Of a stretch of DNA of 38,769 nucleotides, positions 15,563 through 35,295 are shown one piece after another (the stretch's first letter is position 1; each line of letters begins with the position of its first letter). The stretch spans positions 1 to 38,769 of the forward strand of contig NZ_JAUYUD010000078.1 of assembly GCF_030692605.1 (NCBI RefSeq). The letters run 5' to 3'. A program made the position numbers and the translations under genes. The DNA comes from Lutibacter sp. GTDB taxonomy: Bacteria > Bacteroidota > Bacteroidia > Flavobacteriales > Flavobacteriaceae. Below the pieces are notes generated by a model. The model saw only the letters and a list, made by a program, of their open reading frames with translations, was not told the origin of the DNA and searched no databases.

Positions 15563-15687
15563 TTTTTGTTTCTGTTTTGGTAGTATGATGCACAACTTGC
15601 GAATCCTTCCAATAAAATCATCCCAACCTACCAAAAAATTAAGCAGATTGGAATGACAAATATCAAACTTTAAAATCAAATAATTAA

Positions 15688-16686
15688 CTATTTAGACAAT
15701 ATAATCATCGCCAAACCTGCAATGTACAACAGCAACATAATATTCAGCAATGACTTGGTTCCTTTTGGTGCTTGATCAAATTCTTTCCAGATATAAATTC
15801 CCCAAATGGCCGCCACAACGGTTGCACCTTGTCCCAATCCGTACGAGATTGCTGGCCCAGCTTTGCCTGAAGCGATAATGCTCAAGGACATTCCTACACA
15901 CCAAATTGCACCACCAAAAATACCAATTAAATGGTCTTTGGTCGCACCTTTAAAATAATCTGAAAAGGAAACTGGAACACCAATAAATGGTTTTTTCATT
16001 TGAATTGTATTGAAAACAAAACTGCTCACGACAACGCCAACTGCAAAAATCACCAAAGCTGTGTATGGAGTTAGTTTTCCTGCTTCGGGTATATTGAAAT
16101 CGGCAACCATAGACTCGGCAACATATTTATAGAATAATCCCATTAAACAACCACTTACTATCGACAAGATTAATCCTTTTTTGGAAACTTTTTCGGCCAA
16201 GTTGGATTGTAATTTTTGATACGCTTTGGCATTGAGTAAAATAGCCAAAGTAATTAAAGCAACTCCACCAAAAATCAAGGTTGGATCGCCTTGTGGGTTA
16301 GAAATATAATTTACAAGAACGCCAAGAACCAAAGCAATCCCAATCGCAACCGGAAAAGCAACAGACATTCCCGCAATGGCAATGGCTGCCACGAGTAAAA
16401 TATTGGCGGCATTGAAAATTACACCTCCAATAAATGCAGAGGTTAAGCTGTCTTGATTTGCTTGAGAAAAATCTTCAAGAAATGCTCTACCTTCCATTCC
16501 ATTGCTTCCTAAAGTGAAAGCCAAGAGTAAAGTGGTCAATAAAATTCCGAAGCCATAATCCCAATAAAAGAGTTCAAACCGCCAAGTTTTGGTGGTGAGT
16601 TTTGTTGTATTTGCCCAAGAACCCCAACAAAACATAGTGATAACACAAAGCATAATTGCCAATCCGTAATTTTCTACAATAAACAT
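15688..16686 (-). CDS. DMT-superfamily transporter, ureide permease/GRP type
   Basis: Inner-membrane protein of 332 residues with about ten helices. It begins YGLAIMLCVITMFCWGSWANTTKL, a signature of the ureide permease/GRP sugar transporter branch of the drug/metabolite transporter superfamily. Further conserved segments are ELFYWDYGFGILL, GGVIFNAANILLVAAIAIAGMSVAFPVAIGIALVLG, and AIWCVGMSLSIIASGKAGPAISYGLGQGATVVAAIWGI. Plant relatives carry allantoin and uracil; bacterial ones are annotated as sugar or nucleoside-type carriers. It lies downstream of the ribosyl locus on the same strand but is separated from it by a strong terminator and a repeat, so it is not cotranscribed. It could still supply the inner-membrane step for that locus. 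Confidence 0.8.
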   Translation of the reverse strand: MFIVENYGLAIMLCVITMFCWGSWANTTKLTTKTWRFELFYWDYGFGILLTTLLLAFTLGSNGMEGRAFLEDFSQANQDSLTSAFIGGVIFNAANILLVAAIAIAGMSVAFPVAIGIALVLGVLVNYISNPQGDPTLIFGGVALITLAILLNAKAYQKLQSNLAEKVSKKGLILSIVSGCLMGLFYKYVAESMVADFNIPEAGKLTPYTALVIFAVGVVVSSFVFNTIQMKKPFIGVPVSFSDYFKGATKDHLIGIFGGAIWCVGMSLSIIASGKAGPAISYGLGQGATVVAAIWGIYIWKEFDQAPKGTKSLLNIMLLLYIAGLAMIILSK

Positions 16687-16734
16687 AAGCTAATAATTTA
16701 AAGGTTAATATTAATAAAGTTTTTTAATTCTGTG

Positions 16735-16870
16735 GTCAGAGACCGCCAAACACATCCACAAAGTCAGTCCCGAAAGCTTTCGGGATTACGGAGCAATGAG
16801 ATTCCTACGAACTCGAGTTCGCCGTGGCAGACGAACTGGCGAAGCAATGACAAAGGGAGTGCAAATGGTT
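16735..16870. repeat. palindromic intergenic repeat, second copy type
   Basis: Contains the 18-bp perfect palindrome TCCCGAAAGCTTTCGGGA (16768-16785), the 14-bp palindrome CGAACTCGAGTTCG (16808-16821), and GAGCAATGAGATTCCT with GCAATGACAAA. The last motifs also occur in the repeat at 14605-14730. A 63-codon open frame here is not credible as a gene. Confidence 0.6.
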
Positions 16871-16921
16871 ATATCTTTTTTATCATAATACCTCAAAAAA
16901 GAATTAACCAAAAAACAATAT

Positions 16922-16955
16922 AAATCCTACTAAGAAAACATACTTAGTAGGATTT
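16922..16955 (-). terminator. strong bidirectional terminator ending the ribosyl operon
   Basis: A 13-bp perfect stem, AAATCCTACTAAG (16922-16934) with CTTAGTAGGATTT (16943-16955), and an 8-base loop. T-rich flanks occur on both sides. It lies 18 bases past the stop of the DUF4595-like lipoprotein gene on the minus strand. Confidence 0.85.
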
Positions 16956-16972
16956 TTATCTATTTATGTCAT

Positions 16973-17773
16973 TTAATCTTCATAATACGTGTAAGTCCAA
17001 GACTCTGAAAATGGCCCGGCACTTCCTACTCCGTTTTTGGTTTGTGTAGCAACTCTATTCTTGGTATCAAATGTATAAGCAAATGTTCCGTTGAAATTTG
17101 ATGTTGGGTTAGAGGTGATCTTACGGGTATAAGTAAGTGCGAGTTTCTGGTTTTGTTTACCAAATAAACCACCAATATTTTTCCACTCTGAATCAACAGC
17201 GTAAATCTGAGGAATATTGCTCAAATTATCTGCAACTGTATAGGTAAACACTCGATCTTCTCTCAAGGTTGAACCTGCATCGTCGTTGTAACGAAGTCTA
17301 TTTGTTACATTCTTGCTTGCGATTGTCATATTGTATTTCAAATAGGTTTTTCCACCATAATATTCTTCTACTTTTTTCATAATGCCGTCAGCATCATATT
17401 CATAAGCTTCCCATTCAGTTCCAGCAGCATTCCACAGTTCTTTAACAACTCGTCCATTAGTATCGAGAATATAAACTGTTTTAGTTCCGTTTTTATTAAT
17501 AGTAAGCTTGCCAGCAACACTATAATCATAAGTAATTGCTTCTGGAGTTCCTCCGTCATAGATGTTCGATATGCTCGTAACACGCTTATTTGCATCGTAA
17601 ATAAATTCCCAAGATTCTATTTTATTATCTGTGTACTTCATAGAAATTTTCTTGATTTTTGAAGGTACTGGTGGTGGTGGTGGTGGTGAGTCATTATCGC
17701 CCCCACAAGAGCTAATAAACATTGTACTAGCGATTAGTGCAATTGCACTTAAAAAGATTTTAGATTTTTTCAT
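16973..17773 (-). CDS. exported lipoprotein, DUF4595/YD-repeat-like
   Basis: A protein of 266 residues with a lipoprotein signal (MKKSKIFLSAIALIASTMFISSC). A GGDND spacer and a run of six prolines come next. The body is built from repeating beta-hairpin units with YD-type motifs such as FIYDANKRVTSI, YILDTNGRVVKEL, YEYDADGIMKKVEEYY and YTFDTKNRVATQTKNG. This resembles the Bacteroidota DUF4595 lipoproteins and RHS/YD repeats. The likely location is the cell surface or outer membrane. It is the last gene of the minus-strand run, 129 bases after the esterase gene, and is followed by a strong terminator. A substrate-binding or surface-exposed accessory role is plausible but unproven. Confidence 0.75.
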   Translation of the reverse strand: MKKSKIFLSAIALIASTMFISSCGGDNDSPPPPPPVPSKIKKISMKYTDNKIESWEFIYDANKRVTSISNIYDGGTPEAITYDYSVAGKLTINKNGTKTVYILDTNGRVVKELWNAAGTEWEAYEYDADGIMKKVEEYYGGKTYLKYNMTIASKNVTNRLRYNDDAGSTLREDRVFTYTVADNLSNIPQIYAVDSEWKNIGGLFGKQNQKLALTYTRKITSNPTSNFNGTFAYTFDTKNRVATQTKNGVGSAGPFSESWTYTYYED

Positions 17774-17902
17774 AATTATTGTTTTTGTTTAGTGATTAAA
17801 ATTTTAAATTGTAAGTCTACAAGGTTTTTTATCATATTTATATTGGTATTAGTTAAACATTTATTTATTGTTAAAGGGATTCTATTTATAGGGATTCGTT
17901 TC

Positions 17903-19453
17903 TTATCGGTGCATTTTTTGTTGTGTAAAAGTTAAAGTTTCTTTAAGATTATTCAAGAACCAAAGGCTTTCTCCTGTTCCTTCGCCAACACGGTATTCGT
18001 GATAAACATCTTCTTCTCGCAATAACAAATGTGCATTGCCATTGGTTTGATAATTAACGCTTTTATCTGTAGTGCTGATAAAAAACCAGGTGCGTTTCAA
18101 TTGCTTTTTGTTTTTATCGATTGCTTTTTTTAATAAATCATTATCGATAGGAGAATCAAAAAGAACACAAGATGTAAATTTTTCTGGTTGGAGTGCGTTT
18201 TCTAATGCTGTTGTTCCTCCTTCTTCAAAACCTATTAATGCTCGGAAACGATACCCAGTTCTGACACGATATTCTTTTTCTACAGACGGAATTATAGTAT
18301 TAATAATATCAACTTTTTCGTTGATAAAAATTATAATTAATGGTGCCAATACTCCTGCTTTAATTTCTGTTTGAACAGTTAAAGCGATTTTTTCTTTTGT
18401 TTGTTGGCCGAGATTTCCTACGCAATATAGTGTAGGATATAAGCGGTTTGAACTTTTGTACTCTTCAGGTAAAAACACATCATATTGTGTGTTATATACT
18501 ATTTTATTTTTTAAATTTTTAAACGTATTACTATCTTTTGACAAGGTTTTTAAATCCCCACGATAATTCTTTCCTTGAAAGGCATCGCTGATATAACGAA
18601 GACCGTTCGGCAATGCTTCTCTCCAATAGGAAAATTCGTGACCGCCATTTCTCACTCTAAATTCATGAGGAAAATTGCGATTTCGAAGTAATATATGAAG
18701 TTCTTCGTTACTTCTGCTTAAGGTGTTTTCATCGTCGCCATTATCAATATAGAGTTTTAAATTTTGATGTTTTGATACGTCTAATTGTGCAAAAATGTGA
18801 AAAGGGGAATGTTTCATATAATAATCGGTAATTCGCTCTTGTCCGATGCTTCCTTGTCCGCCAAATAAACGTCCCCATTGCTCATTCCATTCCGAAGCGT
18901 CTTCTGTTTTATATTGTTCATCTGTTCTTACTGAAATGCTCAAAGGAACACTTATAGTGAATACTTCGGGATTTAATAACGGAAGGACAATAGCCCCAAA
19001 TCCTCCCATAGAATAGCCCATCGTAGCCCTATGTTCTTTGTTAGGAACTGTTCGGTATTGCTTGTCTATAAAAGGAACTAACTCCTTTATGAACATGTCT
19101 TGGTACATAAATTTTTTGGCATAATCATTTATATAATAATTTCGAAATCCTTGTGGCATCACAAAAATCATTGGTACAATTTTACCGCTTTTCACGGCTT
19201 CATCTGCAAATTGGCTTACTCGACCATTTTCGAGCCATGATGTTTCGTCATCGCCCAAACCGTGTAATAGATAGACAACTGGGTAATTTTTATTTGTAGA
19301 ATAATACTCTTCTGGAAGAACGATTGAATATTTGATATCTTGATTTAGAACTTCACTTTTCATCGAAAGACTTTCCATGATGCGTAGGTTGTTCTGTGCG
19401 AAACCTATCGCAAACGGAAACAAGACTACAAACCATATCAAATATTTTTTCAT
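17903..19453 (-). CDS. exported tandem esterase, second domain lacking catalytic Ser
   Basis: A protein of 516 residues with a cleavable signal peptide (MKKYLIWFVVLFPFAIGFAQ). The first esterase-family alpha/beta hydrolase domain (about 28-295) has an intact apparent triad: S148 in GYSMGG, D240/D241 in DNGDDENTL, and H272 in NGGHEFSYW. The oxyanion-region LLHGLGDDETSW is also present. A second domain of similar fold (about 315-510) keeps the strand order (YDVFLPEEY, LYCVGNLG, RALIGFEEGG, HEYRVGEG), but has E410 where the nucleophile serine belongs, so it appears inactive. The gene is 87 bases downstream of a paralogue with the same layout. A likely role is removal of acyl groups from the locus substrate in the periplasm. 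Confidence 0.85.
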   Translation of the reverse strand: MKKYLIWFVVLFPFAIGFAQNNLRIMESLSMKSEVLNQDIKYSIVLPEEYYSTNKNYPVVYLLHGLGDDETSWLENGRVSQFADEAVKSGKIVPMIFVMPQGFRNYYINDYAKKFMYQDMFIKELVPFIDKQYRTVPNKEHRATMGYSMGGFGAIVLPLLNPEVFTISVPLSISVRTDEQYKTEDASEWNEQWGRLFGGQGSIGQERITDYYMKHSPFHIFAQLDVSKHQNLKLYIDNGDDENTLSRSNEELHILLRNRNFPHEFRVRNGGHEFSYWREALPNGLRYISDAFQGKNYRGDLKTLSKDSNTFKNLKNKIVYNTQYDVFLPEEYKSSNRLYPTLYCVGNLGQQTKEKIALTVQTEIKAGVLAPLIIIFINEKVDIINTIIPSVEKEYRVRTGYRFRALIGFEEGGTTALENALQPEKFTSCVLFDSPIDNDLLKKAIDKNKKQLKRTWFFISTTDKSVNYQTNGNAHLLLREEDVYHEYRVGEGTGESLWFLNNLKETLTFTQQKMHR

Positions 19454-19540
19454 AACTACAATCGATTAATGTGACATAAAATAAGATTTATTCTGTTGAA
19501 ACTTGTCTAAAACGCTACCATCATACTAACTATTCTTAAT

Positions 19541-21148
19541 TTATTTAAGAACTTGAAATAAGGAAGAATACGATTCGCCAAAACCATTCAGAAAGGATTG
19601 ATAGTTATCTCTTCCTTGCCTTACTCTATATTCATTTCCAATACCTGAATTTTTTATTTTTTTATAGAAATTATGATATTCTTTGTAATTGTTGCTGTCA
19701 TCGGTAATGTCGAGATAATAAAAAACCCCAGAAGTCGGATTAGGCGTATCGCTTTTTAATTGTGCGTCAAACAAAAAACAAGAACCAAACAATGCTGGAT
19801 TTTCTGAAACGACGATGTTCGCTTTTGTTCCTCCTAATAAATTTCCTAAAACAACTCTATTGACTTTATTTGCTTTTGTACGATAGCTTGCGTCAATTTT
19901 TTGAATAATTTTTGCAATCACAGCACTACTCAAATTTTCTGAAAAAGGAATCTCAACAATAATCGATTTTGGAATTTTTCCAACCGTCATAGCATTTTTA
20001 TAAAGAGAAAAAACATCTGTAAGGTTTTTTGTTCTTTGATCTTTCTCGTGATTGTGAATAAAATACACTACCGAATAATTTGCAGTGCTTGTCGCATAGT
20101 CATCTGGTTTTAAGACATTGAGTGAAATTCCAGATTCTTCAACAGTCTCATATTCATTACTTTTGATTAATGTTCCTATTGTTATAGGTGTTGAGTCTGA
20201 TGGATACGGAATTCCTCGAACAGCATTGCTGATAAATAGTAACACCTCTCGATATGATTTTTTCCAATAATCAAAAGAGTGTCCTCCGTTTCTTGTTCTG
20301 TACTCGTGAGGAATTTGTCGGTCTCGCATAAGAGCGTGCATATCATCATTTGTTATCGAAAGCGTTTCTTCGTCGTCGCCACAATCAATAAATAGTTTAA
20401 GCCCATTAAACGAGCTTGTGTTTTGAGTGTTAAAAAAGTGAAACGGGCTATGTTGTTTGAAATAATTTGTAATACGAGCTGTTCCACTCGAGCCTTGACC
20501 TCCAAATATTGATCCCCATTGAGAATCAAAAACATGCTGCGGTTCTGCCATGTATTGTTGGTCATTGCGAAAAGACATGCTTAATGGCACACCAATAGTA
20601 AATACATCAGGGTTCAATACCGGAAGAATTAAAGCTCCATATCCGCCCATAGAATAACCCATAACAGCTCTTGCAGATTTGTCGCGCTTGGTTCTAAAAC
20701 GAGCATCGATGGCAGGAACCAATTCTTTGGTAATCATGTCCATATAAGGGTAATTTCCTGTAAACTTGTTTACATAATAGGTATTAAAACCTACTGGCAT
20801 AACATAAATCATAGGAACAATTTCGTCTTTATAGAAATCAACATAATATTTAATATTTCCTTCTGTGTACCAAGATTTTTCGTTATTATCTAAACCGTGC
20901 AAAAGATAAACTACTGGGTAATCTACTTTCGTTTCATTATAATCTGCTGGAAGCAAGACGGCATAATTAATATCAACCTTAAAAATAGCACTTGGCATTT
21001 TCTGGTTTTCTAACAAACGTTCAAATGGTTTAGGTTGAATATCCAAAATAACAGAATCATCTTCCTTGCAACCAATAAGACTCAACGGAAGTAGTACGCC
21101 CCAAAAGAATATCGCAAAAAGTAAGCTGTATTTTCTAACAAGGTTCAT
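19541..21148 (-). CDS. esterase lipoprotein, second domain lacking catalytic Ser
   Basis: A protein of 535 residues with lipoprotein signal MNLVRKYSLLFAIFFWGVLL and lipid site C27 (LSLIGC). The first esterase-family domain (about 45-310) carries S166 in GYSMGGYG, D258/D259 in DCGDDEETLS and H290 in NGGHSFDYW. The second, degenerate domain (about 325-530) has L437 in GNLLGG where serine is expected. I chose ATG 21148 because the 16 further codons to 21196 would overlap the ARH gene and spoil the signal peptide. It starts seven bases after the upstream ARH gene stop. It is a paralogue of the 17903 gene; the lipid anchor suggests the two work in different locations. Confidence 0.85.
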   Translation of the reverse strand: MNLVRKYSLLFAIFFWGVLLPLSLIGCKEDDSVILDIQPKPFERLLENQKMPSAIFKVDINYAVLLPADYNETKVDYPVVYLLHGLDNNEKSWYTEGNIKYYVDFYKDEIVPMIYVMPVGFNTYYVNKFTGNYPYMDMITKELVPAIDARFRTKRDKSARAVMGYSMGGYGALILPVLNPDVFTIGVPLSMSFRNDQQYMAEPQHVFDSQWGSIFGGQGSSGTARITNYFKQHSPFHFFNTQNTSSFNGLKLFIDCGDDEETLSITNDDMHALMRDRQIPHEYRTRNGGHSFDYWKKSYREVLLFISNAVRGIPYPSDSTPITIGTLIKSNEYETVEESGISLNVLKPDDYATSTANYSVVYFIHNHEKDQRTKNLTDVFSLYKNAMTVGKIPKSIIVEIPFSENLSSAVIAKIIQKIDASYRTKANKVNRVVLGNLLGGTKANIVVSENPALFGSCFLFDAQLKSDTPNPTSGVFYYLDITDDSNNYKEYHNFYKKIKNSGIGNEYRVRQGRDNYQSFLNGFGESYSSLFQVLK

Positions 21149-21155
21149 AATTATT

Positions 21156-22730
21156 CTATTTTTTTGTTGTGTCGAGTGGTTTGTTTTGCGAATCACTGTA
21201 GATGACGATAGACTTCATATAGATGCTAAAATCAGGACTTTTATTTACCCATTTTATTTCTACATGATGTTTTCCTTCTTTTAATAAATACTTATGATAA
21301 ATATCGTATTTTCTTACTATATAATCGAATGGCATTTTTACTTGCTCTACTTTCTCTCCGTCTATATATACGTCTAACAGTGCAACATAATCGCTTTTGG
21401 TTGTAGAGCAAATACTATTCACGTTTCCTAATACAACAATCCCATTTCCTGTAAAGTCTATATTGATGTTTTTATCGGTATAATGCTGTCTGAGGTATCG
21501 TTCTTCTTTTGGATACATACCCACAAAGGATTCTTCAAACCGCACGGTTTCAGGTTTTTGAACTTTTATATGAACTTTGTCTCCTTCTATTTTTCCTCCG
21601 TTTTGTTCTATTAATTGAAGGGAATGTTTATAGGTCAAATCATATACTTGATTTAAGGTAATGTCCATGTACGGAAACTTTAAACCCTCTGCTTCTTCTA
21701 AAGCAGGTTTCCAAAAAGCAGGAATGTTTTTGTATCCATCCATCACTCCTAATATTCCTGCGGCAGTAGCTGGATTACAATCGGAATCCTGACCGCAACG
21801 GGTAGAAATATCCATTGTTTTATGAAAATCTTTTTGACCGTACAACAAGCCAATTATAACATAGGCTGCGTTTAATCGGGCATCAATATTAAAGGAGTTG
21901 AACACTCCTTCTGGACATCCTTTTTCTGAAGAGTGATTTTTTTCGACTTCAAACCAAGTTTGTTTCCAGTCATTTGGATATTGTTTGTGCCATTTGATTA
22001 CATCTGCAATTGTTTTATAAAACAAACTTTGTTCAGGAATGGTTTTTAATGCTTCGTTAATAACAAAATCAAGGTCGTTTGAGGTATAGGCTAATGTGTA
22101 CATTGCCGACATAAATACGCCTCCATACCAACCGTCACCATAATTCATAATATGACCAATTCTATCACAATAATCTGAAGATGTATTGATCATTCCTGGA
22201 GACATTAATCCAATAAAGTCTGCTTCTATCTGAAAATCAATATCGTCTGCGTGTGGATTATTCATCCAATGCCCTGAAGCAGGTGGCATAATCCCGTTCA
22301 AAACATTATAACGTGCTGCTTGATTGGCATGCCAAAGTTTGTAGTCTTCATTGGCAAACTCTAAAGCAAAAGCATCTGCACTTGCATTAAGCCCGACTTT
22401 TTCAAGAATATTAACAAAGGTTAGGTCAAGGTAAACATCATCATAAAGTCCTGGATCCAACTCATAAGTTTCTTTGATATAATGGTCATGCCAAATTATG
22501 TCTTGATAATCTTGAATCATCGTTCCTTTGAATCGGAATTCTGTTGGACCACCATAAGTCACACCAATAGTTTGTCCTGCCCAACCTCCTCGTATTTTGT
22601 CTTTTAATTCTTCTTTTGAAATAGAAAATTCTTTAGGAAATTTGCTAACGATATCTTTCTTTGATTTGCAACCGCTTGCAATACTAAGTAGCATTATTAA
22701 AACACCGATATAAATTATTTTTGTATTCAT
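21156..22730 (-). CDS. exported ADP-ribosylglycohydrolase family lipoprotein (ARH-c)
   Basis: A protein of 524 residues with a lipoprotein signal (MNTKIIYIGVLIMLLSIASGC, lipid site C21). The ARH fold covers about 38-390. It has DKIRGGWAGQTIGVTYGGPTEF at the start, the first acidic metal motif YDDVYLDL (96-103), and the second, GQDSDCNPATAAGILG (313-328). Both metal-binding halves of the family are retained, so it is probably catalytic. The C-terminal 130 residues look like a beta-rich accessory domain. Classic ARH enzymes are cytosolic and remove ADP-ribose from proteins; an exported, surface-anchored version next to SusCD points to a nutrient-foraging role on ribosyl compounds. It is two bases downstream of ARH-b. 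Confidence 0.88.
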   Translation of the reverse strand: MNTKIIYIGVLIMLLSIASGCKSKKDIVSKFPKEFSISKEELKDKIRGGWAGQTIGVTYGGPTEFRFKGTMIQDYQDIIWHDHYIKETYELDPGLYDDVYLDLTFVNILEKVGLNASADAFALEFANEDYKLWHANQAARYNVLNGIMPPASGHWMNNPHADDIDFQIEADFIGLMSPGMINTSSDYCDRIGHIMNYGDGWYGGVFMSAMYTLAYTSNDLDFVINEALKTIPEQSLFYKTIADVIKWHKQYPNDWKQTWFEVEKNHSSEKGCPEGVFNSFNIDARLNAAYVIIGLLYGQKDFHKTMDISTRCGQDSDCNPATAAGILGVMDGYKNIPAFWKPALEEAEGLKFPYMDITLNQVYDLTYKHSLQLIEQNGGKIEGDKVHIKVQKPETVRFEESFVGMYPKEERYLRQHYTDKNINIDFTGNGIVVLGNVNSICSTTKSDYVALLDVYIDGEKVEQVKMPFDYIVRKYDIYHKYLLKEGKHHVEIKWVNKSPDFSIYMKSIVIYSDSQNKPLDTTKK

Positions 22731-22732
22731 TT

Positions 22733-24394
22733 TTAATGAGTTTCTTCTGGTAAATTACTTGTAGGTTCTTTTTCTGAATATACTATTAAATCATTTATCC
22801 TAAATTCATAATCAGGATTGTGATTTATCCATTTTAATTTCAAGGTGTGTTTTCCTTCGGTCATTTGGTATTTCCAAGCGGGTTCCAATCTGCGAGCAGA
22901 ATTCATCATTGGTAATTTTACGGTTTGGTCTAAAACGCCATCGACATAAATTTCCATAAGTGCTACGTACGGATCATCTGCTTCGGCAAGAGCCAAAGGT
23001 TCAGAGCCATAAGTTCTTTTTGAAATTCGATCAATGTATTTGACATCAATTTTAGATTTCTTTACTAAGTTTCCGTAAACTACATAACCATTACCGTTGA
23101 ACTCAAGAGTAATTTCATCTGTAAATGATTGGTCAATTTTATTGCGTTCGATTGGAAAAGAATTTTCGAAATTTTGCTCGAAAGCGACTGCTATTGGTTC
23201 AAACAATGGAATGCTAACTTCATTTCCTTTGGTTTTTCCTCCTGCTTGTTCTATGGTTGCTAAAGCATGTTTGAAACTCAAACCGTACGCTTTATCGAGT
23301 GAAACAGTCGTGTTTTCAAAATCTTCTTTTTCGATTTCTTGAAGCGGACTCAACCAGAATTTAGGAATATAACTGTATCCGTGCATTACGCCTAAAACAC
23401 CACCTACGGTTCCTGGATTGCAATCGGCATCTTGTCCGCAGCGTGTTGCAATATCAATCGATTTCGTAAAATCTCCTTTTCCATAAAGTAATCCTATTGC
23501 TACATAAGCGGAGTTTATTTTTGCATCTATATTAAAACCAAGAAAAACTCCTTTTGGACAACCAACGTCATTGTTCCATCTCTTCTGTATCTCGAACCAT
23601 GTTTGCTTCCAATCGTTTGGATATTGCTTGTAAAATTTGATTACATCGGCAATACAACTATGAAATTTTGTTCCTTTCGGAATGGTTTTGATTGCTTGTT
23701 CTACTATATACTCTGGATTATTAGAAACAAAAGCGGTTGAATATAAGGCTGCAACAAATACTCCGCCGTACCAACCATCGCCACTGTTCATTACATGGCC
23801 AACACGGTCTGCAATTTCGGTTGCTTTGTTTATCATTCCTGGTGCCATTAATCCAATAAAATCTGCTTCAATTTGAAAGTCGAGATCATCGGCATGAGGA
23901 TTATTTTTCCAGTTGCCAGAAGCTGGAGGCATTATACCGTTGAGGATATTATATCTTGAGGCTTGATTGGCATGTGCAAGGTGATATGCTGTGGTTGACC
24001 AATGGTTTGCTATATCATTAGAACTTGCGTTTAGACCATATTTTTCAAATGCTGCAACAAAATTTAGGTCAGTATAAATATCGTCAAACAAACCTGGTTT
24101 TTTATCCCACCAATATTTTACATAGTGTTCATTCCAAGGAATAATATGAGATTCATCTACCATAGATCCATTGTATTTGAACTCTACTGGAGCACCATAA
24201 ACAACGCCTATTGTTTGTCCTGCCCAACCGCCTTTAATTTTATCCTGCAAAGTGGTTTTAGACATTTTTATTGATTTTTTTGACAATTCTTCTTTTGTGT
24301 TTGAGTTCTGCGAATAAGCCTCCGACAAGAATATTCCGGTCAATACAATTACTAATTTTACTATTTTTGTTTTGGAAGACATCATAACTACCAT
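22733..24394 (-). CDS. exported ADP-ribosylglycohydrolase family protein (ARH-b)
   Basis: A protein of up to 553 residues. The ATG at 24394 overlaps the upstream gene by seven bases. Internal ATGs at 24385 and 24382 give a cleaner signal peptide (MSSKTKIVKLVIVLTGIFLS, cleavage after EAYSQ). The ARH domain carries DKIKGGWAGQTIGVVYGAPVEF, the first acidic motif FDDIYTDL (103-110 in the longer form), and the second GQDADCNPGTVGGVLG (320-335). The central HADDLDFQIEADFIGLM segment is shared almost word for word with ARH-c, so the two are recent paralogues. The C-terminal part is beta-rich and of unknown type. It is probably periplasmic or secreted and acts on the same substrate class as its neighbours. 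Confidence 0.88.
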   Translation of the reverse strand: MVVMMSSKTKIVKLVIVLTGIFLSEAYSQNSNTKEELSKKSIKMSKTTLQDKIKGGWAGQTIGVVYGAPVEFKYNGSMVDESHIIPWNEHYVKYWWDKKPGLFDDIYTDLNFVAAFEKYGLNASSNDIANHWSTTAYHLAHANQASRYNILNGIMPPASGNWKNNPHADDLDFQIEADFIGLMAPGMINKATEIADRVGHVMNSGDGWYGGVFVAALYSTAFVSNNPEYIVEQAIKTIPKGTKFHSCIADVIKFYKQYPNDWKQTWFEIQKRWNNDVGCPKGVFLGFNIDAKINSAYVAIGLLYGKGDFTKSIDIATRCGQDADCNPGTVGGVLGVMHGYSYIPKFWLSPLQEIEKEDFENTTVSLDKAYGLSFKHALATIEQAGGKTKGNEVSIPLFEPIAVAFEQNFENSFPIERNKIDQSFTDEITLEFNGNGYVVYGNLVKKSKIDVKYIDRISKRTYGSEPLALAEADDPYVALMEIYVDGVLDQTVKLPMMNSARRLEPAWKYQMTEGKHTLKLKWINHNPDYEFRINDLIVYSEKEPTSNLPEETH

Positions 24395-26415
24395 GTTTTA
24401 TTTGATTTATAGACACTTAACTCTGTAATAGATGTGAAACCTGAGACATTTTTAGTGTATTTGTTCCAGTGATCCTGAATCATTGCATCGCCAATAATAC
24501 GAATGGCTTTTGTTTTTACGGACTCAAAACTAATCATGTATTCAGCAAAATGTGGCTGAAAAAAAACAACATCTGTTTTTGGTAATGGTGGATTGAAAGT
24601 GCTTTTATTGACAGAAACCCACTTATTTTCTTCATTTTTGTATTGAACATTCAGAGAAGTGAACCAACCACCAAATTCTTCCATCCCTCCTGTATTAAAG
24701 ACCAACATATCAATATCTTGTTCCTCGTTCCATTCATATCCATAATAATCTACTTTCGGGATTTTTGCTTTGGCAGCCAAACTATAAAATACTGAACCTG
24801 CTCCATTAATCTTTCCATCACGAATTACTTCTGCATTTTTAGCATAGATTGATTTACCAAAAGTGGTCCAACATGAATCGAGTACAGATTCATTTAAAGT
24901 GTTTACATTAGCCAATACTTTGGCAGCCTCTTTTTCAATATTTATGCCACGAACTAACAATTCAAAATCTTTTTTTAAAAATTTTTCACCATTGTCCAAT
25001 TGTACAGTTACTTTGTACTTTCCTGAAATTACTGGTGTACCCGTGAGTCTTCCGTTATTAAATGAAATACCTTTTGGAAGTTTACCATCAACTAATTTCC
25101 AATTGTATTTTTTATTGGCATCGCTGTAAAAAACAAAATCAACAGGCTTGTTTACTTCCATTCGTGCTGCTGGACCAATATAAAACTCAAGTGGAGCATT
25201 AAACACAGTATTTGTATTTATGGTAATTATTTCCTTGCCTGGTTTTCCTGTAACTTTTCCGCCTTTATCCTTTACAAGTTGAACGGTCATTTGTACCATT
25301 CTGTCAATCTGATTTTGAATGCTCGAGTCAGGTAATTCATATCTGGTAATATTGATGTAAGTGTCATTAAATGGTTTTGTCCAAGTATCAATAGGTAAAT
25401 ACAAATCTTTAGGCAAAGCTTTAAAGCCATAAACAATTCCCAACAATCCAGCAACAGTAGCTGCCTGATTGTCTGCATCAAAACCCATGGCACAGGATAG
25501 ATCAAGCGTGCGTTGAAAATCTCCATTGCCGTATAACAATGCTAATATTCCGCATGCACCATTTAGGTTTGCATTCCAAATTGTTTTAGTTAAGTCAGGT
25601 TCGTTTATGTAATATTTATTTGCCATTTCCTGCCAGGCATCTTGCCATTTGTTAGGATATTTTTTATGCAAAGCAATCATGTCGCGAATTGTTTGGGCAT
25701 ATCTGCCGTTACTAGGCAACTCTTTTAAACCAATGTTTATTAATTTGTTAATGTCCTTCTCAAAAAAAGCTGCTGCATACATGGCACCGTAATGAATAGT
25801 AGGTTCTGTTCCCCAGCCATCACTAGTAATTCTCGCCGCCCAATCTGATTTTTGTGCCACATATTTTACCATTCCAGGAGCAGTATAAGCCCATATTTCA
25901 TTAATCAGTTGTGGATCAATTTGAAACCAATGAGGATTAATATCCTTATCTCCTGTGAAAGGAGGTGTAAATCCATAGTGCATTAATCCTAGTGTAGCGC
26001 GATTAGCCAACCACACACGGTCACGAATGTGATACATCCAAGTTTCACGTATTTGCTCGTATGTTGGCTCGAAACCATATTTTTCCATTGCAAGCAAATA
26101 CATATACTCCACATCTGTATCATCATCTGAAAATGCGCCATTATATTTTTTTAATTTATCAAGATTTTTGCTGTAACCATAAGGCCAATTTTCAGCACCA
26201 GGCGCATTTACATATTTATTTTCATGTGGAAGACCATAAATATTACCAATCATCTGACCAATCCAAGCTCCAGCAATTTTATTGTGCATTTCGCTTAACG
26301 AAATCGATTTCTTATCACTTGTTTGCTTTTTCGGTTTCATCGAAGAAAAAAGAAATAAGGCAACGATTGTTAACACAATGATGGTAAATGATGATATGGA
26401 ACTTTTATATTTCAT
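24388..26415 (-). CDS. large exported ADP-ribosylglycohydrolase with Ig and C-terminal modules (ARH-a)
   Basis: A protein of 675 residues. The N-terminal hydrophobic segment (about 8-26) acts as signal or anchor. The ARH domain (about 38-400) has NKIAGAWIGQMIGNIYGLPHE, the first acidic motif DDDTD (97-101), and the second GFDADNQAATVAGLLG (311-326). A putative Ig-like module (about 415-490) contains LPKGISFNNGRLTGTPVISGKYKVTVQ. A last module (about 495-675) resembles discoidin/NPCBM-type beta-sandwich carbohydrate-binding domains. Its start shares one base with the SusD stop, so it is coupled to that gene. It diverges more from ARH-b and ARH-c than those two do from each other. Extra modules suggest it binds a polymer or cell-bound substrate. 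Confidence 0.85.
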   Translation of the reverse strand: MKYKSSISSFTIIVLTIVALFLFSSMKPKKQTSDKKSISLSEMHNKIAGAWIGQMIGNIYGLPHENKYVNAPGAENWPYGYSKNLDKLKKYNGAFSDDDTDVEYMYLLAMEKYGFEPTYEQIRETWMYHIRDRVWLANRATLGLMHYGFTPPFTGDKDINPHWFQIDPQLINEIWAYTAPGMVKYVAQKSDWAARITSDGWGTEPTIHYGAMYAAAFFEKDINKLINIGLKELPSNGRYAQTIRDMIALHKKYPNKWQDAWQEMANKYYINEPDLTKTIWNANLNGACGILALLYGNGDFQRTLDLSCAMGFDADNQAATVAGLLGIVYGFKALPKDLYLPIDTWTKPFNDTYINITRYELPDSSIQNQIDRMVQMTVQLVKDKGGKVTGKPGKEIITINTNTVFNAPLEFYIGPAARMEVNKPVDFVFYSDANKKYNWKLVDGKLPKGISFNNGRLTGTPVISGKYKVTVQLDNGEKFLKKDFELLVRGINIEKEAAKVLANVNTLNESVLDSCWTTFGKSIYAKNAEVIRDGKINGAGSVFYSLAAKAKIPKVDYYGYEWNEEQDIDMLVFNTGGMEEFGGWFTSLNVQYKNEENKWVSVNKSTFNPPLPKTDVVFFQPHFAEYMISFESVKTKAIRIIGDAMIQDHWNKYTKNVSGFTSITELSVYKSNKTW

Positions 26416-27929
26416 TAATTTGGATTTTGAACAAGATTAGTGTTTGCGTTTAGAGCACTTTGGGGTATTGGAAATAATTTTTTATTTGGTCCAGAAGCTG
26501 GTTTTTCCCACCAAGAATTTCCCCACACACCAAAGCGTATTTGATCTTGTCGCCTGTGACCTTCCCAAGCAAACTCTCTTCCTAATTCATCTAATAGTTC
26601 GTTATTAGTAATGTTTCCAATGGTATAAACAGGCAATCCTGCTCTTGTTCTAATTTTTTGCAAATCAGGATTGTTTATGAAGCCAGCTACAGAACCTCCG
26701 CCACGATGAAGTGCTTCAAGTTTAGTATAGAGTACATCAGCATAGCGAAAAAGAACGAAGTCGTTTTCCATATCGACTACATCGTAACTAAGTTTTTCTT
26801 GGTATTCATATTTGGCAACTCGAGCACCTTCCCATTCTCCTCTTGATTTGTAATTTGCGATAGTAGGTGTGTAGATGAATGGTTTACCTCCTATAACAAT
26901 AGCATTTCCTTTGATGTCGTATTGTTGTCCAAAGAGAAAGGATTTTCTTCTGATATCATTGGCTGCATATTTGCCAAAAAAGTCAGGCTGCAATACAAAT
27001 CCGTCCCAAGGCACACCTGCTAAATTAAATGTTGACTGGCTATCAGCATTTAATGTGAGGGCTTGCCAATAAAAGTGTTCGTCTGTGAGCTGAGGATGAT
27101 AAGGAATTACAAAAATATTTTCTTTTGAGCCTTCATTTTTTACTTTAAAATTGGCGAAATAGTCATTTTCGATTTGGTATTTATTTAATGCTATAACCTT
27201 GTCACAAGCCGCTACTGCTTCAACAAATTGATTTTTTCCTACCCATTCTTGTGCGTTAATGTACATCTTTGCTAAAAGAGTATAAGCCATTCCTTTTGTA
27301 ACTCTTCCGTAATATTCTGGTGTAGGAGATTCTTGCAAAAGATTGACATTGTCTAGTATTTCTTTAACTATAAAATCATATACAAATTGTCTGTTCTTTT
27401 GTTGTGGTGGGTTTCTATCACTAAAATCTACAGAAAATGGAATATTGCCCCAGTAGTCTATAGCCCAATAGTAATAAAAGGCTCGAAGGGTTTTGATTTC
27501 TGCAATCACTCTATCTTTGTTTTTAATATCAAGCGGCGTTATTACCTGCAAGATTTCGTTACAGGCCGATATTCCTTCAAAAACCATATCCCACGATTTT
27601 GTAAGGATTTTATTGTTAGCTGTTGAGCTGCCGAGAGTGTGTTTCTGAATGACTTCCCATCGTCCTTGCTCGAACCATTCACCATTGTGTTTGGTAGGAA
27701 TAACAAGCTCATCTGATGCGTTTTGACCTAGCGACCAAAGCCTTTGTTCTTCTGGGTAAGGCTGTAGTTTTACATAAGCACGACCAGCATAAGCAATTAC
27801 ATTTTGTTCATTGGTTAAGAAATTACCTGCTGGAATTTCAGAATACACCTCTTCCGTAAGGTCGGTACAAGAAAATATACTAGAAGCCAATAAGACTAAT
27901 GAAACAGTTGAGATTAAATATTTTTTCAT
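26415..27929 (-). CDS. SusD/RagB family nutrient-binding lipoprotein
   Basis: Cell-surface glycan- or ligand-binding partner of the SusC channel, 504 residues. The lipoprotein signal ends SSIFSC, with lipid site C21. It has family-typical segments: SCTDLTEEVYSEIP near the mature N-terminus, AEIKTLRAFYYYWAIDYWGNIPF (TPR region), and a C-terminal FAWEGHRRQDQIRFGVW followed by KLFPIPQSALNANTNLVQNPN. Length and order match the family. The gap to SusC is 14 bases; the stop overlaps the ARH-a start by one base. Its presence makes the locus a polysaccharide-utilisation-type locus, here with ARH enzymes in place of usual glycoside hydrolases. Confidence 0.95.
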   Translation of the reverse strand: MKKYLISTVSLVLLASSIFSCTDLTEEVYSEIPAGNFLTNEQNVIAYAGRAYVKLQPYPEEQRLWSLGQNASDELVIPTKHNGEWFEQGRWEVIQKHTLGSSTANNKILTKSWDMVFEGISACNEILQVITPLDIKNKDRVIAEIKTLRAFYYYWAIDYWGNIPFSVDFSDRNPPQQKNRQFVYDFIVKEILDNVNLLQESPTPEYYGRVTKGMAYTLLAKMYINAQEWVGKNQFVEAVAACDKVIALNKYQIENDYFANFKVKNEGSKENIFVIPYHPQLTDEHFYWQALTLNADSQSTFNLAGVPWDGFVLQPDFFGKYAANDIRRKSFLFGQQYDIKGNAIVIGGKPFIYTPTIANYKSRGEWEGARVAKYEYQEKLSYDVVDMENDFVLFRYADVLYTKLEALHRGGGSVAGFINNPDLQKIRTRAGLPVYTIGNITNNELLDELGREFAWEGHRRQDQIRFGVWGNSWWEKPASGPNKKLFPIPQSALNANTNLVQNPN

Positions 27930-27943
27930 AATTTCTGTTTTAA

Positions 27944-30892
27944 TTATTTGAATGCTGCTTTTATACCGATAGACAAAGATGTGGTTCTAGGATAGTATGA
28001 TAATCTATCTATTCCTGGTTCTAAACCGCCTTGATTTACTTCTGGATCTATTCCTTTGTATTTGGTAATCCAAAAAACATTTTGAGCTGAACCAAAGATA
28101 TTTAATCCTGAAATGTATTTCGATTCAATGTTAAAATTATAGTTAAGGGTAATGTTGTCTAATTTCAAAAACGATGCGTCTTCAAGATATTTTGAAGAAT
28201 AGGTAATGTTTCCTATAAATTCTGGATTTTCTAACTGTATGTGAACAATATTTCGAAGACCTATATTATTCCAAGACTCATAATACAAACGATATGAATT
28301 CAACACTTTGCCTCCAATTCCTGCACGAAATACAAATCCTAAATTCCAATTTTTATAGGAAAGGTCATTACTCCAACCAATTATAGCATCTGGATTAGCA
28401 CTGCCTAAATTTTCCCATTTACTTTTATCAACTTCGCCAATAGGGTTTTGATTTTTAAATACATCATAGCCGTCTTTAACACCCAACCAAACTGGACCAT
28501 AAAAAGTGCCGAGTTCTTGTCCTTCTTGAATTCGTTGAGTCCAAACTCCAACTGTACCACCAATAAAAGCGGTCTCGTAAGATGTTTGAGTAAATTCGCT
28601 ATTAGAGATTTTATCTAAATAATTTTTATTATGACTGGCGGTAAGAGTAGAATTCCATTGAAAATTATCGTTTTTAATCAGTGTACTATTAAGAGTTAAC
28701 TCTATACCTCTGTTGCTGATTGTGCCTACGTTTGTAAACAATGTAGGATAAAGGTATGGAGGAACAGACACTTGAAATTCCCATAGTAAATCTTCGGTTT
28801 TGCGAACATAATATTCTATGCTACCGCTTAATCTTTTATTTAAAACGGAAAAATCAATTCCTATATTTAACTCGTTTTTCGTTTCCCATTTTAAATCAGG
28901 ATTAGGATTTTGCCCTGGCCCATAAGAATTAATCCACTGTTGATTGTAGTATAGACTGCCTACTCTTTCTAACAAAAGTTGAGATCGATAAGGACTAAAA
29001 TCTTGGTTTCCAGTTACTCCGTATCCAACACGCAATTTCAAACTATTAATCCAATTTACATCTTTAAGAAAGGCTTCTTCGCTTAATCTCCAACCTAAAC
29101 TTAATGAGGGAAATAATCCCCATTTATTATCAGTACCGAACTTAGATGAGCCTTCATTTCTTATTGATGCCGATGCAAGATACTTACCATCATAATTATA
29201 CATCACCCTATTAAAAAAGGCAATTAGCGTGCTGGATTCTTTATAAGAACCCAGTTCTCCTTTTCCTTCTCTAAAATAAGAACCTGCAGCAATATTGTTA
29301 TAAAGAAATAAGTCTGTGTCAAAATTAGAATTTCCTATAAAAGAACTATTCATTTCGTACTCTTGATAAGAGTAGCCAGCTATTGCTTGCAAATTATGTT
29401 TATCGAAGGACTTGTTATAAGTCAAAACACTTTCAAACTGTGAGTTGCTGTTGCGACCATTAGCGATGTCGGCTTCTCCATTAATACCTATAATAGTAGG
29501 GTAATATTTTGTTTTATAAGAGCTGTCTTCCCAATCTGATTTTTGTGTAGCGATAAAATTATCCCAAATAAGACTGTTAGTAACTTTTAGTTTTGCTCTA
29601 AGGCTTAACAAAATATCCGTTGTTTTACCTTCACGTGTTCTTTCGTTTAACATTGCTACTGGGTTATAATATTCTAATCCTTGTTTGAAGGAATATCCAC
29701 CTGTTGCTGGATTCGAATTATCATAAACTGGCTGTGTTGGGTTTTGGATAAAAGCCTGTCTAAATATTTCGTAATTTGCTGGACTATAAGTTCTTATATT
29801 ATTTGTAACATTAAAGTCAAAAGTAAGTTTATCATCGAAAACTTTTTGGATTAAATTAGCTTTAATGATAAGATTTTCCGCTTCATTTTTCTGCAATAAA
29901 CCTTGATTACTCACGTGTGTTAGTGATAAACGTTGAGAAAAGGTTTCTGTTCCTCCCGAAAAGCTAAGATGATTCTCAAAACTAATAGGATTTTCATTTG
30001 TTACCTCTTTAAACCAATCTGTGTTGCTGCCAAAAAGACTTCCCGCTTTCGATGGTTGATAGGTTTCAATTGCATATTTAAACTCATCTGCAGTTAAGTT
30101 TTTTACACCTCTTGGAGCAACTTGAGTAGAAATTTGAGAAGAAAATTCAAAAGTTCCCTTACCTCGCTTTGCGGCTTTAGTAGTGATGATAATAACTCCA
30201 TTTGAGCCACGTGTTCCGTAAATAGCAGCAGCAGAACCATCTTTCAATACATCAAAGGATTCAATATCTTGAAAATTCACATTCTTCAAATCTGCTCCAA
30301 TTACTCCATCTATAATGATTAAAGGTCCTTGTCCTGATGTAAGTGTATTTGTTCCACGCAAAAGAATCTGATATCCAGCCATTGGATCAGCTCCATTTGG
30401 TTTAGTTATAGACAAACCTGCTACCTTTCCTTGAATTAATCCCATTGGATTATTGTAAACTCCTTTATTAAAAGCATCTGATTTCAATGTAGTTACGGCC
30501 CCAGTAATTTCTTTTTTTGTTGTAGTACCATATCCAATTACTACAATTTCATCTAAGTTTTGAGATGATTCATTTAATTTTATATCGATGTGATTCCTTT
30601 TACTTACTGAAACTTCTCTGGTTTGGAAGCCCATAAACGAAAAGATTAAAATTGCATCAGGAGAAGCCTTAAGCGTATAATCACCTTCGAAGCTGGTCAA
30701 GGTTCCTGTTTGTGTGCCTTTTACTAATACATTTACACCAGAGAGTGAATTGCCTGTAGCGTCAGTTACTTTCCCACTAACAACAAAGTTAGCATTAGAT
30801 TGAGCCGATAGCTGTGCAATAGGATATAAAGAGATTGAAGCAAGAAGTATCCAGTAAAATATTCTTGAATGATTAATAAAGTTTGTTTTCAT
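27944..30892 (-). CDS. SusC/RagA family TonB-dependent outer membrane transporter
   Basis: Outer-membrane channel of 982 residues that imports ligand with energy from TonB/ExbBD. A signal peptide ends ISLYPIAQLSAQ. A carboxypeptidase-regulatory-like domain follows (about 35-110, VSGKVTDATGNSLSGVNVLV). The TonB-box-like segment DEIVVIGYGTTTKKEITGAV leads to the plug, and the plug motif ADPMAGYQILLRGTNTL is followed by the barrel. A C-terminal YYPRTTSLSIGIKAAFK matches family ends. It is shorter than many SusC proteins but has no gaps in the expected order. It is preceded by ribokinase (11-base gap) and followed by SusD, so it is cotranscribed with both. Confidence 0.95.
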   Translation of the reverse strand: MKTNFINHSRIFYWILLASISLYPIAQLSAQSNANFVVSGKVTDATGNSLSGVNVLVKGTQTGTLTSFEGDYTLKASPDAILIFSFMGFQTREVSVSKRNHIDIKLNESSQNLDEIVVIGYGTTTKKEITGAVTTLKSDAFNKGVYNNPMGLIQGKVAGLSITKPNGADPMAGYQILLRGTNTLTSGQGPLIIIDGVIGADLKNVNFQDIESFDVLKDGSAAAIYGTRGSNGVIIITTKAAKRGKGTFEFSSQISTQVAPRGVKNLTADEFKYAIETYQPSKAGSLFGSNTDWFKEVTNENPISFENHLSFSGGTETFSQRLSLTHVSNQGLLQKNEAENLIIKANLIQKVFDDKLTFDFNVTNNIRTYSPANYEIFRQAFIQNPTQPVYDNSNPATGGYSFKQGLEYYNPVAMLNERTREGKTTDILLSLRAKLKVTNSLIWDNFIATQKSDWEDSSYKTKYYPTIIGINGEADIANGRNSNSQFESVLTYNKSFDKHNLQAIAGYSYQEYEMNSSFIGNSNFDTDLFLYNNIAAGSYFREGKGELGSYKESSTLIAFFNRVMYNYDGKYLASASIRNEGSSKFGTDNKWGLFPSLSLGWRLSEEAFLKDVNWINSLKLRVGYGVTGNQDFSPYRSQLLLERVGSLYYNQQWINSYGPGQNPNPDLKWETKNELNIGIDFSVLNKRLSGSIEYYVRKTEDLLWEFQVSVPPYLYPTLFTNVGTISNRGIELTLNSTLIKNDNFQWNSTLTASHNKNYLDKISNSEFTQTSYETAFIGGTVGVWTQRIQEGQELGTFYGPVWLGVKDGYDVFKNQNPIGEVDKSKWENLGSANPDAIIGWSNDLSYKNWNLGFVFRAGIGGKVLNSYRLYYESWNNIGLRNIVHIQLENPEFIGNITYSSKYLEDASFLKLDNITLNYNFNIESKYISGLNIFGSAQNVFWITKYKGIDPEVNQGGLEPGIDRLSYYPRTTSLSIGIKAAFK

Positions 30893-30903
30893 AATTTTTG
30901 TTT

Positions 30904-31836
30904 TTATAATTGAGCCAACTCACTACTAAATAATAACAATTCATTACGGTATGGAATTGATGACTGAGCACCCATCCTTGTTACGCTGAGAGCTGATGCT
31001 TTCGCTGCTGTTTTTGCCGCTTCTAATATTGTTTTTCCTTCGGAAAGTCCAACGCAAAGTGTGCCACTGAAACAATCGCCTGCTGCGGTGGTATCAATCG
31101 CCGTTACTTTAGTAGCTATAATATTATAATAATTATCTTTCTCCTTAACAAATACTCCCATTGAGCCCATCGTAATCACAACATTCTGAACCCCCTTTGC
31201 ACTTATTATATCAGCCGCTTGCTTCGCTCGCTCAAAGTTAATTACCTTTATGCCAGAAAGTATTTCTGCTTCTGTTTCATTGGGCGTAACAAGATAAATA
31301 TTTTTAAGTAATTTGTCTGATAAAGTTCTAGCGGGAGCTGGATTAAGAATTACAGGAATTCCGTTTTTTGATGCCAATTCCGCTACATACTCAACTGTCT
31401 CAATCGGTATTTCTAATTGCATTAAAATCAAGTCTGCTGTTTTTATTTCATCTTTCGCTTTATCCACGTCAGATGGATTTAAATTTCCATTTGCCCCTGA
31501 AGCTACTGAAATGCAATTCTCCCCGTAAGAATCCACCATAATTAATGCAACTCCAGAAGGAGCTTTTGGATCGGAGAATATAAAATTTGTATTTATCCCT
31601 TCTGAGTTGTATAATTCAATGGATTGTTTTCCGAAAATATCGTTTCCTGTTTTGGAAATAAAAGTGACCTTACCCCCTTGTCGTGCTGCTGCTACTGCCT
31701 GATTGGCTCCTTTACCGCCTGAATTCATCAAGAAAGTACCACCAATAACAGTTTCTCCTGGAATAGGTAATCTATCACCTTTAATAACCATGTCTGTATT
31801 GCAACTTCCTATTACAATAATTTTTTTCTTATTCAT
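30904..31836 (-). CDS. rbsK: ribokinase
   Basis: Cytoplasmic PfkB-family kinase of 310 residues that phosphorylates D-ribose to ribose 5-phosphate. It has the family signatures: NTDMVIKGDRLPIPGET near the start, NSGGKGANQAVAAARQGG in the first third (the ribose-binding GGKGxN motif), a central PTPNETE-like VTPNETEAE, and DTTAAGDCFSGTL for the catalytic Asp and anion hole. The last reads AAGD where many family members have GAGD. It is the first gene of the run, 11 bases before SusC. Having a ribokinase as the leading cytoplasmic enzyme is the main reason to infer that the locus releases ribose. Confidence 0.93.
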   Translation of the reverse strand: MNKKKIIVIGSCNTDMVIKGDRLPIPGETVIGGTFLMNSGGKGANQAVAAARQGGKVTFISKTGNDIFGKQSIELYNSEGINTNFIFSDPKAPSGVALIMVDSYGENCISVASGANGNLNPSDVDKAKDEIKTADLILMQLEIPIETVEYVAELASKNGIPVILNPAPARTLSDKLLKNIYLVTPNETEAEILSGIKVINFERAKQAADIISAKGVQNVVITMGSMGVFVKEKDNYYNIIATKVTAIDTTAAGDCFSGTLCVGLSEGKTILEAAKTAAKASALSVTRMGAQSSIPYRNELLLFSSELAQL

Positions 31837-35254: not shown

Positions 35255-35295
35255 TTTATTATGCTAAAAGTTCAACAATATAAACAAATTAAATG

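Follow-up and report, generated by a model that had tools for sequence, protein, structure and literature searches.

The contig NZ_JAUYUD010000078.1 of Lutibacter sp. (38,769 nucleotides, analysed at full length and called the window here) carries a gene cluster that is very probably a rus-type ribose-scavenging system. It encodes a ribokinase, a SusC/SusD pair, three proteins with the fold of ADP-ribosylhydrolases (ARHs), two esterases, a sugar permease, a regulator and, between regulator and ribokinase, a citrate-type symporter and a citrate lyase. The best explanation overall, and in our view a probable one, is a rus subtype of Bacteroidota that also uses citrate. Within it, the ARHs likely liberate ribose from a riboside that is not a nucleotide, and the citrate arm is likely to be functional. 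The parts of the locus, their families, their conservation and their linkage are read from the sequence itself.

The order of steps, the bond specificity of the ARHs, the removal of esters and the source of the citrate are what we infer in the following scheme. SusC and SusD would take up an acylated riboside, and esterases of the CE1 type would remove its ester groups. The three exported ARHs would then release ribose as metal-dependent ribosidases that attack O- or N-linked ribose and not ADP-ribose. Ribose would reach the cytoplasm via the permease and be phosphorylated by the ribokinase, with the BT2802-family regulator in control. In the same feeding event a second arm, consisting of a DASS or CitMHS symporter, CitDE and CitF, would take up and split citrate or a close relative.

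Rus systems as such are already known, whereas the citrate arm was unexpected. If the scheme is true, the ARH fold would serve in nutrition, away from both the cytoplasm and ADP-ribose signalling. A literature search without full-text reading returned no paper on point for ARH genes in SusCD loci, for citrate lyase together with ribokinase and SusC, for citrate lyase and CitG in Bacteroidetes, or for a ribose-citrate glycoconjugate.

The gene at 36987-38510 on the plus strand, divergent from the other genes of the locus, encodes a protein of 507 residues that passes the cut-off of NCBIfam NF058569 (645 versus 550 bits), a model labelled 'BT2802 family ribose utilization protein'. The cluster of the window was therefore assigned to the rus systems. 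The other features of such systems are present as well, all on the minus strand: a ribokinase (rusK/rbsK, 30904-31836) matching the ribose equivalog TIGR02152 with 366 bits (cut-off 300), a SusC/RagA TonB-dependent outer-membrane transporter (27944-30892; TIGR04056, 701 bits, cut-off 368), a SusD-like surface lipoprotein (26415-27929; PF07980, PF14322) and a rusT-like sugar permease of the DMT/GRP type (15688-16686; PF07168, PF06800).

BT2802 itself we take to be RusR. The RusR module of B. thetaiotaomicron comprises the rus genes BT2803-2809 and its activity is highest on ribose (PMC12596196); in another source, a table row at BT2804 lists a ribokinase, a TonB receptor, SusD, a DUF4969 protein, a nucleoside hydrolase and a DMT permease (PMC10434189). 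The window shares the BT2802-family regulator, the ribokinase, SusC/SusD and the DMT-type permease with this system (BT2802-BT2809). In contrast to it, the window has three exported ARHs and two esterases, and it adds the citrate transporter and citrate lyase genes. Among the scanned locus genes no nucleoside hydrolase of the B. thetaiotaomicron rus type was found, and the ARHs stand instead of it; we regard the nucleoside hydrolase as peculiar to one rus variant and not as a defining trait. A 2020 rus paper reportedly describes rus loci as diversified across the Bacteroidetes, perhaps with ARHs.

An initial annotation of this DNA had described nine same-strand genes in the order rbsK, susC, susD, three ARH genes, two esterase genes and a DUF4595-like lipoprotein gene, tightly spaced for the most part, followed by a strong terminator and without a regulator gene beside them. 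The genes and their order are correct; they run from 31836 down to 16973 on the minus strand, and their families were determined by profile search. The tight spacing applies to six of the eight gaps, which are short or overlapping, and not to the last two (successive gaps of 11, 14, -1, -7, 2, -41, 87 and 129 bases). On inspection, the first esterase, EST1, is likely to start at an internal ATG (21148), which turns the overlap of 41 bases into a gap of 7. A terminator-like stem of 13 pairs, of which 4 are G-C, does lie 3' of the lipoprotein gene (16955-16922, minus strand). The ninth protein (16973-17773), a lipoprotein with a homologue in 50 of 80 related loci, belongs to no clear family; a sub-threshold RHS-repeat match was the only one obtained, which does not bear out the DUF4595-like label. 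Parts of the locus had been missed altogether, namely the permease and the citrate genes (32485-36783), and the supposedly absent regulator gene is the BT2802-family gene divergent from the symporter-citDE-citF-rbsK run.

Relatives of the operon were collected by scanning species genomes with ARH2, and the best 80 of 118, ranked by ARH2 similarity, were kept. These 80 loci are spread across the Bacteroidota with ARH2 identities of 48-77%; several of their contigs are short, so that absence of a gene beside the operon often cannot be assessed. The gene order recurs: rbsK, susC, susD and ARH1-3 occur together in 55 of the 80 loci, all of which have at least one esterase and an ARH2 that is 57-77% identical. 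The nine-gene operon is real and widespread, and it recurs beyond chance. Many of the other loci are cut by contig ends, and the farthest relatives (L095 to L101) are arranged differently. Of the 59 loci whose sequence extends 6.5 kb or more beyond the first ARH on the upstream side, 58 contain a ribokinase (the exception is L096). Together with the BT2802-family ribose regulator, this lends good support to the earlier proposal of ribose foraging by a SusCD system. A permease homologue was found in 67 of 71 assessable loci. Minimal relatives consist of rbsK, ARH and permease (L098) or of rbsK and three ARHs (L099, L100).

For genome-wide tests 50 of the 80 loci, mostly the longer ones, were submitted, which gave 49 operon genomes. 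They were compared with an even phylum sample of 395 Bacteroidota genomes including the window's own, i. e. 394 others. Eight other genomes of this sample have the ARH type of the window (E 1e-60), and in four of the eight a ribokinase lies within about 1.5 kb. This indicates that this branch of ARHs goes with ribose.

In the 63 loci that bear rbsK, its neighbour is a divergent regulator homologue in 29 and another divergent gene in 16; the remainder have citF (8), another same-strand gene (6) or a contig end (4) at this place. Five of the 16 other divergent genes were scanned, and four of them (L069, L082, L090, L091) contain LacI-type binding domains; the divergent gene beside rbsK in L099 encodes an unrelated THUMP-like protein. 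In all five extended loci with the layout of the window the regulator is divergent beside the symporter. The regulator of the window had no Pfam match, and its structure model is all-helical with weak TPR-like matches, none of them at E 0.001 or better.

PF03747 matches in the genome (cut-off 26 bits) are confined to the three ARH genes, which lie on the minus strand. ARH1 (24388-26415, 675 residues, 104 bits) combines the ARH fold with an Ig-like He_PIG domain, ARH2 (22733-24394, 553 residues, 124 bits) has a C-terminal beta domain, and ARH3 (21156-22730, 524 residues, 127 bits) is a lipoprotein with 50% identity to ARH2 in the alignment. According to the initial annotation all three have export signals and keep both acidic metal motifs. 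The signals are plausible by inspection, with a lipobox in ARH3, but less clear in ARH1. The motifs are indeed kept in all three and invariant across the relatives (ARHs below 430 residues were excluded from the counts): ARH1 has Glu65, SDDDTD and DxDN in 68 of 68 rows, and the corresponding residues (presumed catalytic Glu, Asp pair, DxD) do not vary among the 71 rows of ARH3 or, save one gap, among the 72 rows of ARH2. DxD is followed by Asn in ARH1 and by Cys in ARH2 and ARH3, with Ser in one ARH2 row; human ARH3 has Thr at this place (DxDT). The role of each catalytic residue is presumed to be the same as in that enzyme.

With an AlphaFold2 model of ARH2 (mean pLDDT 90), Foldseek retrieved structures of DraG, ARH1, ARH3 and a Thermus ARH (best E 1.4e-6, 10-15% identity); the listed ARH/DraG chains had TM values by target of 0.54-0.76. 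A sequence search against solved ARHs gave a marginal match to Tri1 for ARH2 and none for ARH1. The ARHs of the window look like active enzymes. They have the fold and the catalytic acids in common with the ADP-ribosylhydrolases (ARH1, ARH3, DraG, Tri1; PF03747) and differ from them in their predicted export, the extra C-terminal domains, the low identity just given and the DxDC or DxDN motif.

Alpha-linked ribose is the usual target of ARH enzymes. Neither a nucleotidase, a pyrophosphatase or a nuclease nor a nucleoside hydrolase or phosphorylase was found among the scanned locus genes, and thus the ARHs are suggested to cut O- or N-ribosides. They are probably extracytoplasmic ribosidases rather than ADP-ribose enzymes, with a bond specificity still to be regarded as predicted. 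Their earlier description as exported, ribose-releasing enzymes is likewise plausible in view of the invariant catalytic acids and the ARH/DraG fold. Among the substrates considered with it were ADP-ribose, NAD and nucleosides, whose bonds the ARHs would cut outside the cytoplasm; these are not supported. Such scavenging would fit the ARH fold and its metal-ligand acids, and the phosphoribulokinase/uridine-kinase family gene before rbsK in L075 could be counted in its favor. Yet this kinase-family gene is the only nucleotide-handling gene among the scanned neighbours of the relatives (a minority of all neighbours), similarity to the solved ARHs is marginal or absent at the sequence level, and the esterases and citrate genes would be left unexplained. 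With no nucleotide enzymes among the scanned locus genes either, we consider this alternative very improbable.

Two observations on these genes may be added. The kinase-family gene of L075 occupies positions 1-1446, and genes of similar size are found at this place in L077 and L083. In Prevotella intermedia, a gene of the ADP-ribosylglycohydrolase family adjoins the gene for the hemin-uptake protein HmuY and is upregulated in the iron stimulon reported in PMC10434189, a further unusual context of the ARH fold.

The two esterases, EST1 (19541-21196, minus strand, 140 bits) and EST2 (17903-19453, minus strand, 153 bits), both belong to PF00756. They have the GYSMGG motif in common with CE1/feruloyl esterases, and the solved structures closest to EST2 are ferulic acid esterases (7xrt, E 6e-45). 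They differ from these enzymes in their length of about 520 residues, with a second half without GxSxG. When sequences below 470 residues were excluded, the serine motif was present in the first half of 62 of 62 EST1 and 40 of 43 EST2 proteins, and GxSxG was missing from the second half in 59 of 62 and 42 of 43, respectively (101 of 105 together). The second half is possibly a conserved dead domain. EST2 tends to accompany the citrate module: both occur in 33 loci, EST2 alone in 4, the module alone in 1 and neither in 6; in the module-only exception (L023) the contig ends after EST1.

The citrate arm of the window consists of three genes on the minus strand. A DASS-family anion symporter for citrate or dicarboxylates (35296-36783; TIGR00785, 263 bits, cut-off 199) is followed by citDE (34043-35254), in which an acyl-carrier domain is fused to the citrate-lyase beta subunit, and by citF for the alpha subunit (32485-34050; TIGR01584, 535 bits, cut-off 501). 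Symporter orthologues with 53-81% identity occur in 29 of the 49 operon genomes, every one of them on the contig that bears ARH2 and at a distance of up to about 11 kb; the remaining symporter matches of the operon genomes have 35-42% identity. At E 1e-110 the symporter has matches in 25 other genomes of the phylum sample. Since the best of these matches has 46% identity, the symporter subclade appears to be confined to the locus. The same does not apply to CitF: specificity of CitF for the locus was ruled out, as the same clade is present in 36 of the 394 other genomes. Nevertheless CitF exceeds the cut-off in 33 of the 49 operon genomes versus these 36 of 394 (E 1e-60), for which the Fisher value of 6e-19 is indicative only, because the two thresholds differ and relatedness is uncorrected.

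A citrate gene is linked in 34 of 44 full loci, a tally entered by hand that omits five short loci, none with CitF over the cut-off. Where a citrate gene is linked, 33 of 34 genomes have CitF, versus none of the 10 others; a linked citF is itself among the genes that count as linked here. In the sharper test, with the symporter as the criterion, CitF was found in 28 of 29 genomes with and 5 of 20 without it. The position of the citrate genes varies. In the 46 labelled loci they lie upstream in 9 and downstream in 4 (symporter plus citDE-citF), the symporter stands alone downstream in 18, citDE-citF stands alone in 3, CitMHS is present in 2, and 10 have none. Gelidibacter japonicus (L028) and G. 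salicanalis (L025) are cultured carriers of the upstream layout. CitMHS (TIGR00784, 544 bits, cut-off 260) is an unrelated family and fills the symporter slot in L034 and L036. In Ferruginibacter, permease, lipoprotein, symporter, citDE, citF and rbsK follow each other on one strand, so that the citrate genes lie within the run between lipoprotein and rbsK. The layout needs 11 changes on the tree, with gain and loss of the module included; CitF linkage needs at least 2. For the trees, CitF frames of 450 residues or less were dropped, and the canonical CitF outgroup was dropped from the later tree. A chance neighbourhood of the citrate genes was considered and is unlikely from their genome-wide positions, the phylum sample and the trees, although independent origins are few.

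The locus itself was likely acquired by horizontal transfer. In the ARH2 tree the window groups with Ferruginibacter, Cyclobacteriaceae, a Flammeovirgaceae genome and Gelidibacter, and an ARH2 match of any kind was found in only 8 of 36 congeners, with a strong one only in G010 (39%). Both findings argue for transfer. They would also be in accordance with two neighbouring operons that were joined by chance or by such a transfer, since the nearest kin of the window span several families and the strong ARH relative of G010 belongs to a different rus. Against two operons of this kind stands the variety of layouts, in which the citrate genes are upstream, downstream or inside, or represented by the transporter alone, depending on the relative; we regard such a joining as improbable. 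The G010 locus (L021) contains ARH, GH3, GH5, GH27-like, GH63-like and beta-helix genes and is another, glycan-type rus variant.

Several points weigh against a citrate-using rus subtype. A linked citrate gene is lacking in ten of the 44 full loci. On the ARH2 tree, just 3 changes suffice to explain where the citrate module is present, and the 3 independent pairs, which agree in 2-3 and disagree in none, are too few for significance. In the window a gap of 648 bases separates citF from rbsK, and the hairpin in this gap is no better than chance. A shared operator was not apparent in the two intergenic regions, the longest common word being 11 bases versus a shuffle mean of 10.6. CitE (267 versus 443 bits) and citD (63.4 versus 63.5 bits) stay under their equivalog cut-offs, although citF is above. 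CitG and CitC had no match in the own genome, which is 99.99% complete by the tool used; CitX was not searched. Finally, expression and activity are predictions from sequence throughout.

Some of these points would also be explained if ribose and citrate were separate nutrients that co-occur in plant, algal or fungal exudates or lysates, sharing a regulator for convenience and no joint molecule. The citrate genes come and go, the gap before rbsK is long, and CitF, where present (33 genomes), shares the operon contig in 14 cases and is on another contig in 19. Separate nutrients do not, however, account well for a symporter subclade that is found only with this locus, nor for citrate genes that stay linked across several layouts. 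Such a co-occurrence is quite possible, and it is compatible with most of the citrate-using rus subtype favored here.

With this rus subtype in mind, ribose and citrate may tentatively be derived from one molecule. A candidate, offered with similar reserve, is a widespread natural glycoconjugate of ribose, probably alpha-linked, with ester-bound citrate or a citrate-like acid. Its acid could be freed by the esterases and consumed by a CitG-independent branch of the lyase, and the ARHs could represent a new class of extracytoplasmic ribosidases. We know of no ribose-citrate glycoconjugate. By this the gene order would be turned into a chemical prediction, namely that some Bacteroidota meet a substrate yielding ribose and citrate together.

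The lyase deserves a closer look. In common with citrate lyases (CitDEF) that work with DASS/CitT or CitMHS uptake, it has a CitF over the equivalog cut-off, carrier and beta domains that score below theirs, and a citrate-type transporter; it differs in the CitD-CitE fusion, in a genome without CitG or CitC and in the setting of a SusCD locus. None of the 36 phylum-sample genomes that hold this CitF clade (G117 to G499) has a CitG, and of 7 operon genomes examined 5 lack it as well. The remaining two (G070, G076) have CitG together with a canonical 600-bit CitF on the CitG contig. Thus the absence is not a local defect of the window genome. Both the window and the 14 rows inspected, some of them repeats, have RSDC in the carrier domain, and the pattern ES[GSA][DN] was found in none of the 54 relatives tested. 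Judged from these sequences, this lyase clade either has another mode of activation or acts on an acid other than citrate. In the latter case the acid could be a relative of citrate such as citramalate, and the CitG-less CitF/CitDE clade would have another substrate or cofactor, to which both the lack of CitG and the carrier pattern would be suited. Since CitF passes the citF equivalog cut-off and two relatives carry the 544-bit citMHS citrate symporter, we consider another acid rather unlikely.

A branch of 28 rows in the ARH2 tree, which includes Alistipes and rumen loci, has no citrate gene in any locus, some of which are cut short, and most of its loci have one esterase instead of two. Paludibacter-type and digester loci fall into this branch too, which makes the contrast in habitat, taken from record titles, a loose one. 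Given such citrate-free relatives and the minimal rbsK-ARH-permease loci, the ribose and the citrate halves of the scheme can be tested separately.

Downstream of the permease, at a distance of 8 bases and on the same strand, 14780-15679 encodes a protein of 299 residues with a sub-threshold methyladenine-glycosylase match. A dispersed repeat in the gap between permease and lipoprotein was rejected, as the 131-base core is single copy in the genome. This gap (16687-16972) is hairpin-rich and comprises 286 bases in the window, with a median of 48 bases in the relatives.

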